Source: Cyanobacteria bacterium MAG CAR3_bin_5
GTDB lineage: Bacteria > Cyanobacteriota > Cyanobacteriia > PCC-6307 > Cyanobiaceae
Direction of reading: 5' to 3'
Assembly (NCBI GenBank): GCA_026709085.1
Contig: JAPOTR010000012.1
Location: forward strand, 62,001-126,000
DNA: 64,000 nucleotides
Shown here: positions 2,767 to 40,788 of the stretch, in pieces
How positions within the stretch are numbered: position 1 is the stretch's first letter
Layout of the letters: each line of letters begins with the position of its first letter
Program-made: the position numbers and the translations under genes
The notes under the pieces: model-generated
Database searches by the model: none
What the model was told of the DNA's origin: nothing
What the model saw: the letters and a program-made list of their open reading frames with translations, nothing else

Positions 2767-4425
2767 ATGACCGCTAGCGTCATCACCCCTCAGGTGCGTC
2801 ACATCTCCCTGGCTACTCCCTTCCAGGACCAGAAGCCCGGCACATCCGGTCTGCGCCGACCCACTCCCGTCTTTCAGCAGCCCCACTACCTGGAAAGCTT
2901 CCTTGAGGCTGTCCTGCAGACCTTGCCAGGGGTGCAGGGGGGGACGCTGGTGGTGGGGGGAGACGGTCGCTACGGCAACCGCCAGGCCATTGACGTGATC
3001 CTGCGCATGGCCTGCGCCCATGGAGTGGGCCGGGTCATTGCCACCACGGACGGTATCCTCTCCACCCCGGCCGCCTCCCACCTCATCCGCACCAGCCCCG
3101 GCTGTGTTGGCGGCATCATCCTCTCCGCCAGCCACAATCCCGGCGGACCGGAGGAAGATTTCGGGGTCAAGGTCAACGGCGCCAACGGTGGCCCGGCGCC
3201 GGAGAAGCTGAGCAACGCCATCCACCTGGCCACACTGGCCCTGCAGGGCTACGCCATTGTGGAGGCGGAGACCATTCCCCTGGATCGGCCTGGCCGCCAT
3301 CAATTGGGGACCATGGCCGTGGAGGTGGTGGACGGGGTGGAGGACTTCGTGGCGCTGATGCAGAAGCTATTTGACTTTGATCAACTGCGGGATTTTCTCG
3401 GCAGCGGGTTCCCCGTCACCTTTGACGCCCTCCATGCGGTGACGGGACCCTATGCCCGGCGGATTTTTGAAGACCTGCTGGGACTGCCCGCCGGCACGGT
3501 GCGCCATGGCCTGCCCCTGGAGGACTTCGGTGGGGGCCACCCTGATCCCAACCTCACCTATGCCAAACCCCTGGCGGATGCGTTGTTGCAGGGGGATGAG
3601 TTCTCGTTTGGAGCCGCCTGTGACGGGGATGGGGACCGCAACATGATTCTGGGTCGCAGGTGCTTTGTGAACCCCAGCGACAGCCTGGCGGTGCTCACTG
3701 CCCATGCCACCCGGGTGAAGGGCTATCGGCAAGGCCTGGCTGGCGTGGCCCGCTCCATGCCCACCAGCGCCGCGGTGGACGTGGTGGCCGAGCAATTGGC
3801 CATCCCCTGCTATGAAACCCCCACGGGTTGGAAGTTTTTCGGGACGTTGCTGGATGCGGGCAGGATCACTGTCTGTGGCGAGGAGAGCTTCGGCGCCGGC
3901 TCGGACCACGTGCGGGAGAAGGACGGTCTCTGGGCGGTGCTGTTCTGGCTGTCCATCCTGGCGGCGGAGCGGTGCTCGGTGGCCAGCCTGATGGAACGCC
4001 ACTGGGCCGTCTACGGGCGCCACTACTACTCCCGCCATGACTACGAGGGGGTGGAGCAGACGGCAGCGGCGGAGTTGTATGGGGCGCTGCGGGACCGGTT
4101 GCCCAAGCTGGCGGGCCAGCCCTTGGCGGGGGACAGGATTGACCAGGCGGACGAGTTTTGCTACACGGATCCGGTGGACGGCGCCACCAGCAGCGGGCAG
4201 GGGTTAAGGATTTTGCTGGAGAGTGGCAGCCGCATGATCTTCCGCCTCTCGGGCACCGGCACCCGTGGGGCCACCCTGCGGCTCTATCTGGAGCGTCACG
4301 AGCCCAGCAGCGGGGCACTGAACCTGGACCCCCAGACGGCCCTGGCGCCGCTGATCCGAGGGGCCGACCAGTTGGCGGGCATCCGTGAACGCACGGGCAT
4401 GACCGCACCCACCGTGATTACTTGA
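2767..4425 (+). CDS. pgm: Phosphoglucomutase (alpha-D-glucose-1-phosphate specific)
   Basis: The enzyme interconverts glucose 1-phosphate and glucose 6-phosphate, linking glycogen and cell-wall sugar synthesis to central metabolism. All four active-site signatures are readable: the phosphoserine loop ILSASHNPGG, the metal loop DGDGDRNMILG, the sugar loop CGEESFGAGSDHVREKDGLW, and the phosphate loop RLSGTGTRGA. The start at ATG 2767 (MTASVITPQ) gives 552 residues, the usual size; in-frame codons extend to 2683 but read as non-family sequence. The last 627 bp (3797-4423) are repeated almost perfectly at 11214-11840, and the two copies part exactly at the stop codon (TGA here, TAA in the other copy). 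Confidence 0.95.
   Translation: MTASVITPQVRHISLATPFQDQKPGTSGLRRPTPVFQQPHYLESFLEAVLQTLPGVQGGTLVVGGDGRYGNRQAIDVILRMACAHGVGRVIATTDGILSTPAASHLIRTSPGCVGGIILSASHNPGGPEEDFGVKVNGANGGPAPEKLSNAIHLATLALQGYAIVEAETIPLDRPGRHQLGTMAVEVVDGVEDFVALMQKLFDFDQLRDFLGSGFPVTFDALHAVTGPYARRIFEDLLGLPAGTVRHGLPLEDFGGGHPDPNLTYAKPLADALLQGDEFSFGAACDGDGDRNMILGRRCFVNPSDSLAVLTAHATRVKGYRQGLAGVARSMPTSAAVDVVAEQLAIPCYETPTGWKFFGTLLDAGRITVCGEESFGAGSDHVREKDGLWAVLFWLSILAAERCSVASLMERHWAVYGRHYYSRHDYEGVEQTAAAELYGALRDRLPKLAGQPLAGDRIDQADEFCYTDPVDGATSSGQGLRILLESGSRMIFRLSGTGTRGATLRLYLERHEPSSGALNLDPQTALAPLIRGADQLAGIRERTGMTAPTVIT
3797..4423 (+). repeat. 627-bp direct repeat, copy A (3' end of intact pgm)
   Basis: This segment of pgm is repeated in the same orientation at 11214-11840. 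By eye the only differences lie in one Thr/Ala codon near the left end (ACG here, GCC there) and the neighbouring base. Identity begins at TGGCCATCCCCTGC and stops inside the termination codon. The two copies are 7,417 bp apart and flank the accessory genes between them. Confidence 0.93.
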
Positions 4426-4492: not shown

Positions 4493-4521
4493 TTGCGGTC
4501 TGCTTCCAGCGGTGGTAAAAT
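4493..4521 (+). promoter_or_regulatory. Possible sigma-70 promoter for the lipoprotein gene
   Basis: TTGCGG and TAAAAT are separated by exactly 17 bp, about 55 bp upstream of the ATG at 4577. The -10 matches the consensus at five of six positions; the -35 is weak. Confidence 0.35.
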
Positions 4522-4579
4522 TGTGGAAGCTTTTCTCAAGCATTTTGACCCATTCATCCCTGCGACGGTTCGTTACATG

Positions 4580-4596
4580 CCCCCCCCCAAAAAAAA
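4580..4596 (+). repeat. C9A8 homopolymer tract immediately after a candidate start codon
   Basis: Nine C residues (4580-4588) followed by eight A residues (4589-4596) come directly after ATG 4577. With 17 bases the ATG is out of frame with the lipoprotein; with 18 (one more C or A) it reads straight through to the lipobox. Between the in-frame TGA at 4546 and the internal ATG at 4672 there is no ATG, GTG or TTG in the lipoprotein frame. The sequence directly shows the tract and the frames; a switching role is inference. Confidence 0.75.
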
Positions 4597-4671
4597 TTCG
4601 AGCACGTATACGATGCCCGAAGCCGCCTGATCCCATCGGCCTATCGCGGCCTTCTGGGATTACCCCTTCTT

Positions 4672-6708
4672 ATGCTGTTGGCCTCTTGTGGCGGCGGGGG
4701 CGGGGGAAGCTCCAATAACGAGGAACTGGCGGAAAGGGCTAGGCAGGAAGTCAATGTCTATAGGGCCATTGCCCAAGCTAGACCAAGGCCGGGCACGGCT
4801 AGCGTGAGCCAATCTTCAAGAACACAAAACGGCATCACTTTAGATAGTGTATCTAGCACACTAAACTCTAACGGATTAACTGTGAGAAACGATAATGACT
4901 GGAGTATATTTTTAGAGAATACATATTCTGCATCATCTAATATAAGTCATCTTCGATTATGTGATACTACTTTATCTATTTTAGATGATGATCCCATGGT
5001 AGTAGTTGACTGTCCCTATAATCACATAGACCGTATATTCGCCACAGATGATACAGCCAATTACGTTACCCAAGATAATAAATATGTGTCTATATCAGGA
5101 GGTATAACAGATAACAATATTGTTTTAGGTAGTTTTCAAATAGCTGATAAGCCTTCTTCATTATTATCAGTCAATGATAACATAGGTCTTTTTGTATCAG
5201 GGAATGATCCATTTAGTCAAAATAAAATAACATCTTTAAGTGGCTTAGTACAATACAATGGGATTGCAATCCTTAGTTTTTTGCCTAATAAAAATACAAC
5301 AATTGATCATTATCGTGAAATTCGTGAAATGTATGGCAATCTTGTTTTAAGAGTTAACTTTGGCAATTCTAACGAATTAGGCAAAATAAACGGTACTATT
5401 AGCGACTTCAGAGTGGGTTTAGAAGTTCTCATTAGCGACAGAAATTATGCTACTATTATTGATTATGACAATAATAACCTAAATAATAATCTAAGTGGAA
5501 TTCTTTATTTAGAACAAGCTAATGTAGGGGACAGCCACAGTGGATTCCATGAGGGCAATATCTCAGGTACACTTGATGGGGCGCAGTACAATGGAAAATG
5601 GGGCGGTCAGTTTTATGGTAATGGCACCAGCAACGGCTTGCCGGAAACCGTAGCAGGGACTATGGCAGCAGAATCAAATACGAATCTAATCGTATCTTCA
5701 TGGGCTGCTGACTTTCACCGGATCGTACGCAGCACCTTGAATCAAGGTCCAGGCTACCTTACCCCCGGTCAATCCCAAGCCAGCCCCATTGACCCCCAGG
5801 AATTGGCCAGCAGCTTCATGGCCCCAGGCCCGGCCTTGGGGGATGCTTTGGGTAACTCCATCGGTGAGCAGCAGGTGACAGGCTTTAGCAGTGTGCCGGG
5901 GATAACCTTCAATCTGAACGGGGATTCCTTTGTGGGGATAACGCCGGGGGCCAGCCTTGCCGCCTCCCTGAATTCCTTCATGGCTCCTTCTGATTGGACA
6001 ATCCCTGACCAGTGGCAATTCTCCCTGAATCCCCTTCACACTCTTTCCAAGCACGGCGCTTCCCTGGAACAGGGCAAGAGCCTGTTCCATCTTGCTAGCC
6101 CCCAGGGGTGGGCTGCCTCCTTCCATACTCAGGGAGTAGAAGTTGCCTACAACCCCTCTGAAGGTCCTTTCACCTTCACTGCCGGGGCCGTCCATGAACC
6201 GGATTCCCTCTTGGGAACCCAGGCCAGAGGTATCTTTGGCAGTCTTGCCGCTGATACCTTCTATATGGGTAGCCGTTGGCAAACCGACATGGGGCAATGG
6301 TCCCTGGCCGCCAGTGGAGAAGTTGGCCTTGTTGCCCCCACCGTGACGGGAAGCAACGTCATTGACGGCATTGATACCCTCACCACCAACACCTTTGCCC
6401 TTGAAGTCGCCAGGGAGTTTAACAACGGTAACACTCTGCGATTCTCCCTTAGCCAGCCCCTACGGGTGGCCGCTGGTTCCATGGCCTACACCTTTGCCAA
6501 TGGTTCCCAAGATGGTCTGGTGACGGGGGAAAGCCATTCAGCATCCCTCACCCCCAGCGGCCGCCAACTGGACTTCACCAACGCCTTGGACGTTCCCCTG
6601 GGGGAAGGTGAGCTTTCCTTGGGTCTCACCATGAGCACCCAACCAGGACACAGAAAGGGGGCCGATCCGGAGGTGGCCATCTTCACCGGGTATGAAGCCC
6701 GTTGGTAG
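4672..6708 (+). CDS. Surface lipoprotein: TbpB-like barrel fused to subtilase-type autotransporter-like C-terminus
   Basis: The protein has a lipobox (L-A-S-C) followed by a glycine linker, so it should be lipidated and exported. ATG 4672 lies inside the hydrophobic core of the signal peptide; the real start is probably ATG 4577, which is in frame only if the C9A8 tract has one extra base. Residues about 40-335 are strand-rich and end in a G-K-W-G-G-Q-F-Y-G-N...P-E-T-V-A-G-T-M motif, typical of TbpB-like lipoprotein barrels. From about residue 350 the sequence (ALGDALGNS, SLTPSGRQLDF, QPGHRKGADPE) resembles the C-terminal region that follows S8 protease domains in some exported proteins, but no protease domain is present. 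The first half is visibly AT-rich and the second half GC-rich, suggesting a mosaic. Ligand and role are unknown. Confidence 0.7.
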   Translation: MLLASCGGGGGGSSNNEELAERARQEVNVYRAIAQARPRPGTASVSQSSRTQNGITLDSVSSTLNSNGLTVRNDNDWSIFLENTYSASSNISHLRLCDTTLSILDDDPMVVVDCPYNHIDRIFATDDTANYVTQDNKYVSISGGITDNNIVLGSFQIADKPSSLLSVNDNIGLFVSGNDPFSQNKITSLSGLVQYNGIAILSFLPNKNTTIDHYREIREMYGNLVLRVNFGNSNELGKINGTISDFRVGLEVLISDRNYATIIDYDNNNLNNNLSGILYLEQANVGDSHSGFHEGNISGTLDGAQYNGKWGGQFYGNGTSNGLPETVAGTMAAESNTNLIVSSWAADFHRIVRSTLNQGPGYLTPGQSQASPIDPQELASSFMAPGPALGDALGNSIGEQQVTGFSSVPGITFNLNGDSFVGITPGASLAASLNSFMAPSDWTIPDQWQFSLNPLHTLSKHGASLEQGKSLFHLASPQGWAASFHTQGVEVAYNPSEGPFTFTAGAVHEPDSLLGTQARGIFGSLAADTFYMGSRWQTDMGQWSLAASGEVGLVAPTVTGSNVIDGIDTLTTNTFALEVAREFNNGNTLRFSLSQPLRVAAGSMAYTFANGSQDGLVTGESHSASLTPSGRQLDFTNALDVPLGEGELSLGLTMSTQPGHRKGADPEVAIFTGYEARW

Positions 6709-11213: not shown

Positions 11214-11842
11214 TGGCCATCCCCTGCTATGAAACCCCCGCCGGTTGGAAGTTTTTCGGGACGTTGCTGGATGCGGGCAGGATCACTGTCTGTGGCGAGG
11301 AGAGCTTCGGCGCCGGCTCGGACCACGTGCGGGAGAAGGACGGTCTCTGGGCGGTGCTGTTCTGGCTGTCCATCCTGGCGGCGGAGCGGTGCTCGGTGGC
11401 CAGCCTGATGGAACGCCACTGGGCCGTCTACGGGCGCCACTACTACTCCCGCCATGACTACGAGGGGGTGGAGCAGACGGCAGCGGCGGAGTTGTATGGG
11501 GCGCTGCGGGACCGGTTGCCCAAGCTGGCGGGCCAGCCCTTGGCGGGGGACAGGATTGACCAGGCGGACGAGTTTTGCTACACGGATCCGGTGGACGGCG
11601 CCACCAGCAGCGGGCAGGGGTTAAGGATTTTGCTGGAGAGTGGCAGCCGCATGATCTTCCGCCTCTCGGGCACCGGCACCCGTGGGGCCACCCTGCGGCT
11701 CTATCTGGAGCGTCACGAGCCCAGCAGCGGGGCACTGAACCTGGACCCCCAGACGGCCCTGGCGCCGCTGATCCGAGGGGCCGACCAGTTGGCGGGCATC
11801 CGTGAACGCACGGGCATGACCGCACCCACCGTGATTACTTAA
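11214..11842 (+). pseudogene. pgm 3' fragment, direct repeat copy B
   Basis: This duplicates the last 209 codons of pgm, from L-A-I-P-C-Y-E-T-P to the terminal T-V-I-T, and terminates with TAA instead of TGA. It contains the sugar and phosphate loops but not the phosphoserine or metal loops, so it cannot be an active mutase. A continuous frame upstream to 10814 runs through unrelated DNA antisense to the nucleotidyltransferase relic and is not a real N-terminus. The near-perfect identity to copy A implies a recent event or ongoing gene conversion. It lies next to tRNA-Pro, the likely original right neighbour of pgm. Confidence 0.9.
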
Positions 11843-11874
11843 GGACAGAGGACATTGGTGGGAAACGGACAGAA

Positions 11875-11948
11875 TCGGGGCGACAGGATTTGAACCTGCG
11901 ACATCTTGCTCCCAAAGCAAGCGCGCTACCAAACTGCGCTACGCCCCG
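11875..11948 (-). tRNA. tRNA-Pro (TGG anticodon)
   Basis: On the minus strand the acceptor CGGGGCG pairs with CGCCCCG followed by discriminator A. The anticodon stem CTTGC/GCAAG encloses the loop TTTGGGA, giving TGG. The T arm contains GGTTCAAATCC. No CCA is encoded. It lies between the pgm repeat copy B and mnmA. Confidence 0.95.
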
Positions 11949-11971
11949 ATACATCCGTCACGACTGCCACC

Positions 11972-39553: not shown

Positions 39554-40788
39554 CAGGCAACCAGACGGCAGAAGGTCTTTTTCCCAAGCTGGAGCACCTT
39601 CCCTTCCAGGGTCTCCCTGGCGAAAGCCGCTTTGGGATCCGTGATTTTCTCCCCGTCAAGGCGAAGCCCCCCCCCCTGGATGCGGCGGCGGGCTTCGCTG
39701 GCGCTGGTGACCCCTGCCCTGGTTTTGAAGACCCCATGCAGCAATTGATAGGCCGGAATGGGGGTTGACCAGTCCCAGATGGACGCCAGGCGGATTTCCG
39801 GCACCTGGGCCGCCGAGGTGCTGCTGGATCGGGGTGTCAGCACCAGGGCGGCAGCAGCGGCCTGGGCCTGCTGGGCAGCTTCCCTGCCATGGAGAGAGGC
39901 GGTAACCTCCAGGGCCATGGCTTTTTGCCGCTGGCGGGGATCCCGGGGCAGGGCCGCCGGATCCAGATCCGTCAACAGGGTGACGTAGTCGTCCACCACG
40001 GCATCCGCCACCTTCTCCAGCTTGGAATAGGTGGTGAGGGGATCCTCCCGGAGGCCGATGGTGTTGCCCAGGCTCTTGCTCATCTTTTGCACCCCGTCGG
40101 CGCCCGTGAGAATGGGCATCAACAGCCCGAACTGGGGCGGCTGGCCAAAACAACGTTGCAGATCCCGCCCCATGGCCACGTTGAATTTCTGATCCGTCCC
40201 CCCCAGTTCCACGTCCGCCCTCACCATCACGGAATCGTAGCCCTGCAGGAGGGGATAGAGGAACTCGTGGAGGGCGATGGGGGTCCCCTGTCCGTAGCGG
40301 TTGGCGAAGTCCTCCTTGGCCAGCATCTGCCCTACGGTGGCCGTGCCCAGCAACCGGATTACCTGGCCAAGATCCAGCTTGGCCAGCCATGTGCTGTTGC
40401 GCTGAATCTCCAGACGTCCCGGCGTCGCGAAATCCAGAATCGGACCCAACTGCTCCAGGTAGGTGCGGGCGTTCTCCTCCACCTCCCGGGGGTCAAGCCG
40501 GGGCCGGGTGGCTGATTTGCCGGTGGGGTCCCCGATCCGGGCGGTAAAATCCCCGATGATCACGACCGCCGTGTGGCCGGCATCTTGAAAAGCCCGCAGC
40601 TTGCGGTAGAGGATGGTGTGCCCCAGGTGAATGGAGTTGGCGGTGGGATCAATGCCCAGCTTCACCCGCAGGGGGCGATCAGCCTGCTGGGCGGCCGCCA
40701 GCCGGGCCGAGAGGCTCTGGTTCCGTTGATCGGCAGCATGGGGGAACAGGTCCGCCAGACCCCGTTCCAACCAACCGGGAAGTGTCAT
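39553..40788 (-). CDS. tyrS: Tyrosyl-tRNA synthetase
   Basis: A class I synthetase of 411 residues. It has the HIGH-type motif S-I-H-L-G-H near residue 54, [10 protein letters not shown], the tyrosine-binding Q-G-Y-D-S-V and G-G-T-D-Q-K-F-N blocks, and K-M-S-K-S near 240. It ends with an S4 RNA-binding segment ([10 protein letters not shown]). The long connective spacing places it with the TyrZ-like subgroup. It is coupled to pyrF downstream. Confidence 0.96.

Follow-up and report, generated by a model that had tools for sequence, protein, structure and literature searches.

Among bacteria, it is the pathogens and commensals of animals for which contingency loci are best known. In Neisseria meningitidis the autotransporters NalP and MspA are switched by poly-C tracts of 6 to 15 C in the coding sequence, and NalP is ON only at 7, 10 or 13 C (PMC3723659). 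NalP is a lipoprotein of the cell surface and has a beta-barrel transport domain (PMC7857515). The Campylobacter proteins CapA, CapC and CapD combine a conserved C-terminal barrel with divergent passengers and have poly-G in the coding sequence or upstream of it (PMC7168839); in capA a poly-T tract adjoins the poly-G, and in C. jejuni variable loci with poly-G/C tracts of 8-11 bases have been studied (PMC4965091). Cyanobacteria are absent from the text of both a tract survey of 99 prokaryotes (PMC2831843) and a 2025 review (PMC11868660), and our literature search, with most subscription papers outside its reach, found no cyanobacterial contingency case.

Here we analyse a candidate for such a locus in a 64,000-nucleotide stretch of DNA (the window) that forms part of one contig (C19) of a 2.37 Mb draft genome in 67 contigs. 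The genus mates found through relatives of the lipoprotein described below are sponge symbionts of the 'Candidatus Synechococcus spongiarum' type, including strain SH4, and other genus-mate matches are sponge-metagenome Synechococcus or Prochlorococcaceae bins. We consider it probable that the locus works by slipped-strand contingency and belongs to a set of such loci in a sponge-symbiont cyanobacterium of the 'Ca. Synechococcus spongiarum' group. It resembles the NalP and MspA loci in having poly-C in coding sequence, but differs from NalP in that the encoded protein has no Pfam subtilase and in that the tract is a C9A8 compound placed straight after the ATG. A closer likeness to NalP is seen in the paralogue L004/L043, with its lipobox, S8 subtilase passenger and C14 and G12 tracts. 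With the Cap autotransporters the window protein family shares a constant C-terminal domain and variable passengers, yet the two belong to different phyla and differ in tract position and base. We treat the resemblance to NalP/MspA and to capA/capC/capD as one in the apparent way of working and claim no family membership.

The start region and its reading frames

Recomputing the window sequence gave the order that the sequence-only reading had reported: on the forward strand, a presumed start codon ATG (4577-4579) is followed by nine C (4580-4588) and eight A (4589-4596). Read from this ATG as sequenced, the frame encodes MPPPKKNSSTYTMPEAA and closes at TGA 4628-4630. The lipoprotein frame opens at 4549, just past TGA 4546, and runs to its stop at 6706. 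By reading, it contains the signal peptide, lipobox and cysteine of a lipoprotein, with a hydrophobic core and the lipobox L-A-S-C at 4639-4689 (...GLLGLPLLMLLAS-C, Cys at 4687-4689). The further claim that no ATG, GTG or TTG occurs in this frame between TGA 4546 and the ATG at 4672 proved correct; 5' of the lipobox cysteine that ATG is the only such codon, it lies within the hydrophobic stretch, and the ORF counted from it (4672-6708) has 678 codons.

Tract length would decide expression here through the reading frame, and the ON frame alone links the lipobox to a start codon. In computed tract variants with C alone varied, C10 yields a 710-codon ORF from ATG 4577 and C7 one of 709 codons; with A alone varied, the full ORF from this ATG is obtained at A9 or A6 only. 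One extra base thus brings the signal peptide and lipobox into frame, as originally proposed, and the loss of two does likewise. Since C9A8 puts the signal peptide and everything downstream in the wrong frame, the sequenced genome represents the OFF state. In the mechanism that we favor, translation would start at ATG 4577 and slipped-strand mispairing at replication would add one C or A, or remove two bases, restoring the frame; the opposite change in length would turn the lipoprotein off again. We infer slippage itself, its reversibility, surface exposure of the product and a role in encounters with host, grazers or phages.

The tract might instead be effectively untranslated, with the lipoprotein starting at ATT 4552, CTG 4627, CTG 4654 or ATG 4672. 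The first three are rare-start candidates that do stand in the lipoprotein frame, and several tract-less homologues begin no more than 30 codons from the lipobox. Rare starts are, however, uncommon, ATG 4672 would leave nearly no signal peptide (MLLASC), and unrelated genes too have poly-C after an ATG or GTG, so that we find this explanation decidedly unlikely.

Upstream of ATG 4577, the consensus promoter scan reported no promoter at its threshold. A weak promoter-like pair, TTGCGG-17-TAAAAT (4493-4521, plus strand), can be read directly; its -10 element is good and its -35 element poor, and TAAAAT lies about 56 bases 5' of the ATG. An imperfect inverted repeat adjoins the tract (4597-4621) and, followed by T8, is terminator-like on the minus strand; it is possibly a chance occurrence, 0.4 being expected in the region.

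The encoded protein and its neighborhood

The divergent passenger region (4690-5748) is partly AT-rich, with 29-38% GC at 4801-5600 against 55-60% in the rest of the gene, as if this part had been exchanged from elsewhere. It is followed by a conserved C-terminal domain (5749-6705) that is common to the subtilase-bearing paralogues and ends in a W. Over its last 300 residues the protein shares 39-50% identity with paralogues and relatives, among whose passengers are subtilases; paralogue L043, for example, has an S8 subtilase passenger (PF00082, 1.9e-32). Searches of the window protein against Pfam and NCBIfam returned no family; neither a Pfam autotransporter domain nor a NalP-like S8 passenger was found, and a profile search of solved structures gave no sequence relation to the NalP barrel. 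AlphaFold2 predicts about 12 strands for the C-terminal domain (pLDDT 65-85), and the best Foldseek matches among solved structures, all with E > 0.001, are barrels of the outer membrane, the BrkA autotransporter domain among them. On these models the domain is likely to be an outer-membrane barrel, and a classical (type Va) autotransporter is a plausible description of the protein. The gene product would then be a lipoprotein of the outer membrane whose passenger varies and whose C-terminal domain is conserved and probably a beta-barrel.

Relatives of the C-terminal domain are also found in bins of Gammaproteobacteria, Binatia and Defluviicoccus, which suggests that this surface-protein domain has spread between phyla. 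C/G runs of at least 8 are absent from four of these relatives in other phyla (L125, L126, L130 and L133), and L132 has only a G8.

The 3' 627 bases of pgm (3797-4423) are repeated 7.4 kb downstream at 11214-11840 (99.7% identity), where the repeat adjoins a tRNA-Pro gene (11874-11949, minus strand). Between the two repeats lie the lipoprotein gene and SIR2-like/ATPase-like genes, an arrangement as in an inserted island. We considered the second pgm fragment as a possible second copy of the tract and rejected it, since the repeat stops at the pgm stop codon, 5' of the tract.

Tract and frame state in paralogues and relatives

Out-of-frame tracts recur at comparable positions. L104, from another species (G002), reads ATG-CCA-C11, is out of frame with no in-frame start and would be ON at C7, C10 or C13. 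The glycosyltransferase L064 reads GTG-C13 and is likewise out of frame, with ON states at C11 and C14; in the comparison of glycosyltransferase orthologs the G001 contig stops about 28 bases short of the conserved motif. Out-of-frame poly-G directly 3' of the lipobox is present in the paralogues L002 (G10) and L004 (G12) and in L106 (G15) of another species, and the porin tract is out of frame if the porin's ATG is used. The tracts of the TonB receptor, FkbM, L063 and L040 are in frame as sequenced, and the TonB receptor has G12 here and G9 in another species (L141), both in frame. Such a mixture of ON and OFF states among tract genes is the pattern expected of contingency loci.

These comparisons bear on whether a fixed tract could be recoded. 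RNA polymerase might add an A on A8, or the ribosome might shift by -1 on the C-A tract (C CCC CCC, A AAA AAT), either giving a constant fraction of intact product from unchanged DNA. The required shift (-1 for the ribosome, or one more nucleotide in the RNA) matches the direction that such tracts permit, and correction of frame at oligo-A is known in chloroplasts (PMC8254509). The relatives, however, need other corrections (-1 in L104, +1 in L064), and their tracts lack an A run or are positioned elsewhere. Slippage on A8 would not need the C9 half, and the fold of the tract region is ordinary rather than unusually stable (z -0.92), on which ground a programmed-frameshift structure at the tract was rejected. 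We regard recoding as unlikely, and slipped-strand switching remains our preferred reading.

Most homologues of the window protein lack a long tract. The sequence-only reading had asked whether homologues have a tract of 18 bases or an intact start: none has an 18-base tract, in L090, L091, L093, L094 and L096 the start is intact and a tract is absent, and others have a different tract. The ORFs of two relatives (L090 and G009:C150) are broken, which would fit a fixed OFF allele in a gene on its way to loss, disabled by an ordinary frameshift in a chance tract, as would the lack of enrichment of C9 runs in the genome (see below). Against this, the 678-codon ORF is in every other respect intact; the break is located exactly in the tract, as it is in L002, L004, L104 and L106. 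Codon-position differences from the relatives, at about.29-.37/.25-.32/.47-.55 for positions 1/2/3, indicate that the lipoprotein frame is under constraint. A fixed OFF allele appears to us highly improbable.

Long runs across the genome

C/G runs of at least 9 number 55 in the genome, compared with 77 expected from a geometric distribution extrapolated from the window's own run lengths or 131 from a first-order Markov model. A C9 run is thus by itself ordinary in this genome, and we rejected C9 as significant alone. Runs of at least 12 number 20, where 2.3-4.7 are expected; this is the maximum among 271 genomes of the family, the next having 11 and 162 having none. What is unusual in the genome is this excess of C/G runs of at least 12, and what is unusual at the locus is a C9A8 compound that follows the start codon at once, leaves the signal peptide out of frame and recurs in relatives.

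Half of the 20 long runs sit in copies of a single leader, GAACAAAG-TACTA-TG-Cn-GCAGG..., whose eleventh copy has C11. Where the contig continues, the gene 3' of the leader encodes a large secreted protein with fn3, Calx-beta and choice-of-anchor R domains; six of the 11 copies reach a contig end before a gene is visible, and several contigs stop inside or just past the secreted-protein gene. The 100-base upstream flanks of three copies with C11, C12 and C13 are 97-98% identical, implying faster change in the length of the tract than in the sequence around it. Downstream of the leader tract, the secreted-protein family has perfect eight-base arrays of CGGCTCAG, GCGCTCCT, CTTCTGAT or CGCAGGAG in 5-11 copies. 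Near the 5' ends of paralogous genes for large secreted proteins, perfect eight-base tandem arrays of 4.8-11.4 copies are present at L063:1213-1269, L042:3192-3248, L037:2706-2748, L045:2702-2744, L054:1-55, L082:1-55, L079:3319-3409, L053:3336-3387 and L087:658-695. As eight is no multiple of three, the gain or loss of one array unit shifts the frame.

The remaining ten runs lie in or upstream of genes for envelope proteins, glycan enzymes and DNA methylases, functional classes that were assigned post hoc. They comprise an SLH/OprB iron-uptake porin (C12 and C17), the S8 subtilase lipoprotein (C14 and G12), a TonB receptor (G12), a GT2 glycosyltransferase (C13), an FkbM methyltransferase (C12), a Type ISP restriction-modification enzyme (C13) and a DUF1156 DNA methylase (C12), together with a mid-gene G15 in a membrane protein whose sequence resembles that of a glycan transferase, with only a weak WsfD match. 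The tracts of the two methylase genes, Type ISP and DUF1156, may lie in leader and not in coding sequence. A separate C11 in a leader (L051, about 3053-3063, minus strand) lies about 45 bases 5' of a gene that reads like a phycoerythrin beta chain, a light-harvesting gene that it could tune.

Housekeeping runs, assembly and mismatch repair

Homopolymer length is commonly miscalled and the genome is a draft in 67 contigs, which raises the possibility of an assembly or sequencing error. As a control we considered housekeeping and metabolic genes with C9-C10 within or between Pfam domains, among them recA, dnaX, thrS, homoserine dehydrogenase and tsaE. All 13 are in frame, which makes an assembly error at C9 unlikely. 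The first 126 bases of contigs C17 and C60, which lie inside repeats, are the same, a feature typical of short-read graph assembly. We find an error at the locus barely credible. The same control shows that C9-C10 is tolerated in housekeeping genes, even recA; the slippage rate need not be high, and C9A8 may slip slowly. The window itself contains a C10 run (39667-39676) in the 3' part of the tyrosyl-tRNA synthetase gene on the minus strand, where the frame is open.

An acetate kinase gene (L074:2217-3511) is out of frame at C11 (2992-3002); a shortened neighboring copy (L073) has the same C11. With this metabolic gene broken at its tract and some tract genes ON, a broken tract need not in every case be a surface switch.

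MutL (PF01119) was found in none of the 10 genus genomes and in none of 121 sampled genomes of the family, while MutS is present in all 10 genus genomes. Loss of mutL is described in several Prochlorococcus (PMC5101192), and MutL is present in Synechococcus elongatus. Because the absence is family-wide in the sampled genomes, it does not account for the surplus of long tracts in this genome, and we rejected MutL loss as the specific cause; its absence is a permissive background.

Discussion

The case for phase variation rests on context, namely recurrence in paralogues and relatives, enrichment of runs of at least 12 and the housekeeping control, and not on C9 alone. The sequence-only reading had proposed candidate phase variation at this locus, and that proposal gains support from the tract-dependent ORF, from its recurrence (L104, L064, L002, L004 and L106), from the concentration of tracts at envelope and methylase genes and from the 13 of 13 in-frame control. 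Its remark that such tracts are unusual for cyanobacteria fits the scan of 271 family genomes and the literature found, within a search that lacked key organism papers.

We regard phase variation at this locus as a well-grounded candidate, and the reading has widened from one locus to a genome-wide tract set. The locus would belong to a set made up of C/G runs at surface-protein, envelope-glycan and DNA-methylase genes and of the eight-base repeats of the secreted-protein family. In Campylobacter, Neisseria and Haemophilus the contingency loci likewise form a tract set in surface-protein, envelope-glycan and restriction/methylase genes. Unlike those organisms, the present one is a photosynthetic sponge symbiont with additional perfect eight-base arrays, and its candidate switching is read from sequence. 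The position of tracts in or before many cell-envelope genes suggests on/off surface switching as in host-adapted pathogens. We are evenly divided on a broader proposal, that a genome-wide and independently evolved contingency set of poly-C/G tracts and eight-base arrays switches porin, receptor, subtilase-lipoprotein, glycan and DNA-methylase genes, so that a clonal symbiont population would be mixed in the surface types that face sponge cells and phages.

Gene calls on single consensus assemblies would miss or truncate tract genes of this kind. If our reading is correct, a photosynthetic organism in symbiosis with an early-branching animal would share the contingency strategy, and the genes described here would be concrete candidates for variation of the symbiont surface towards sponge cells and phages.
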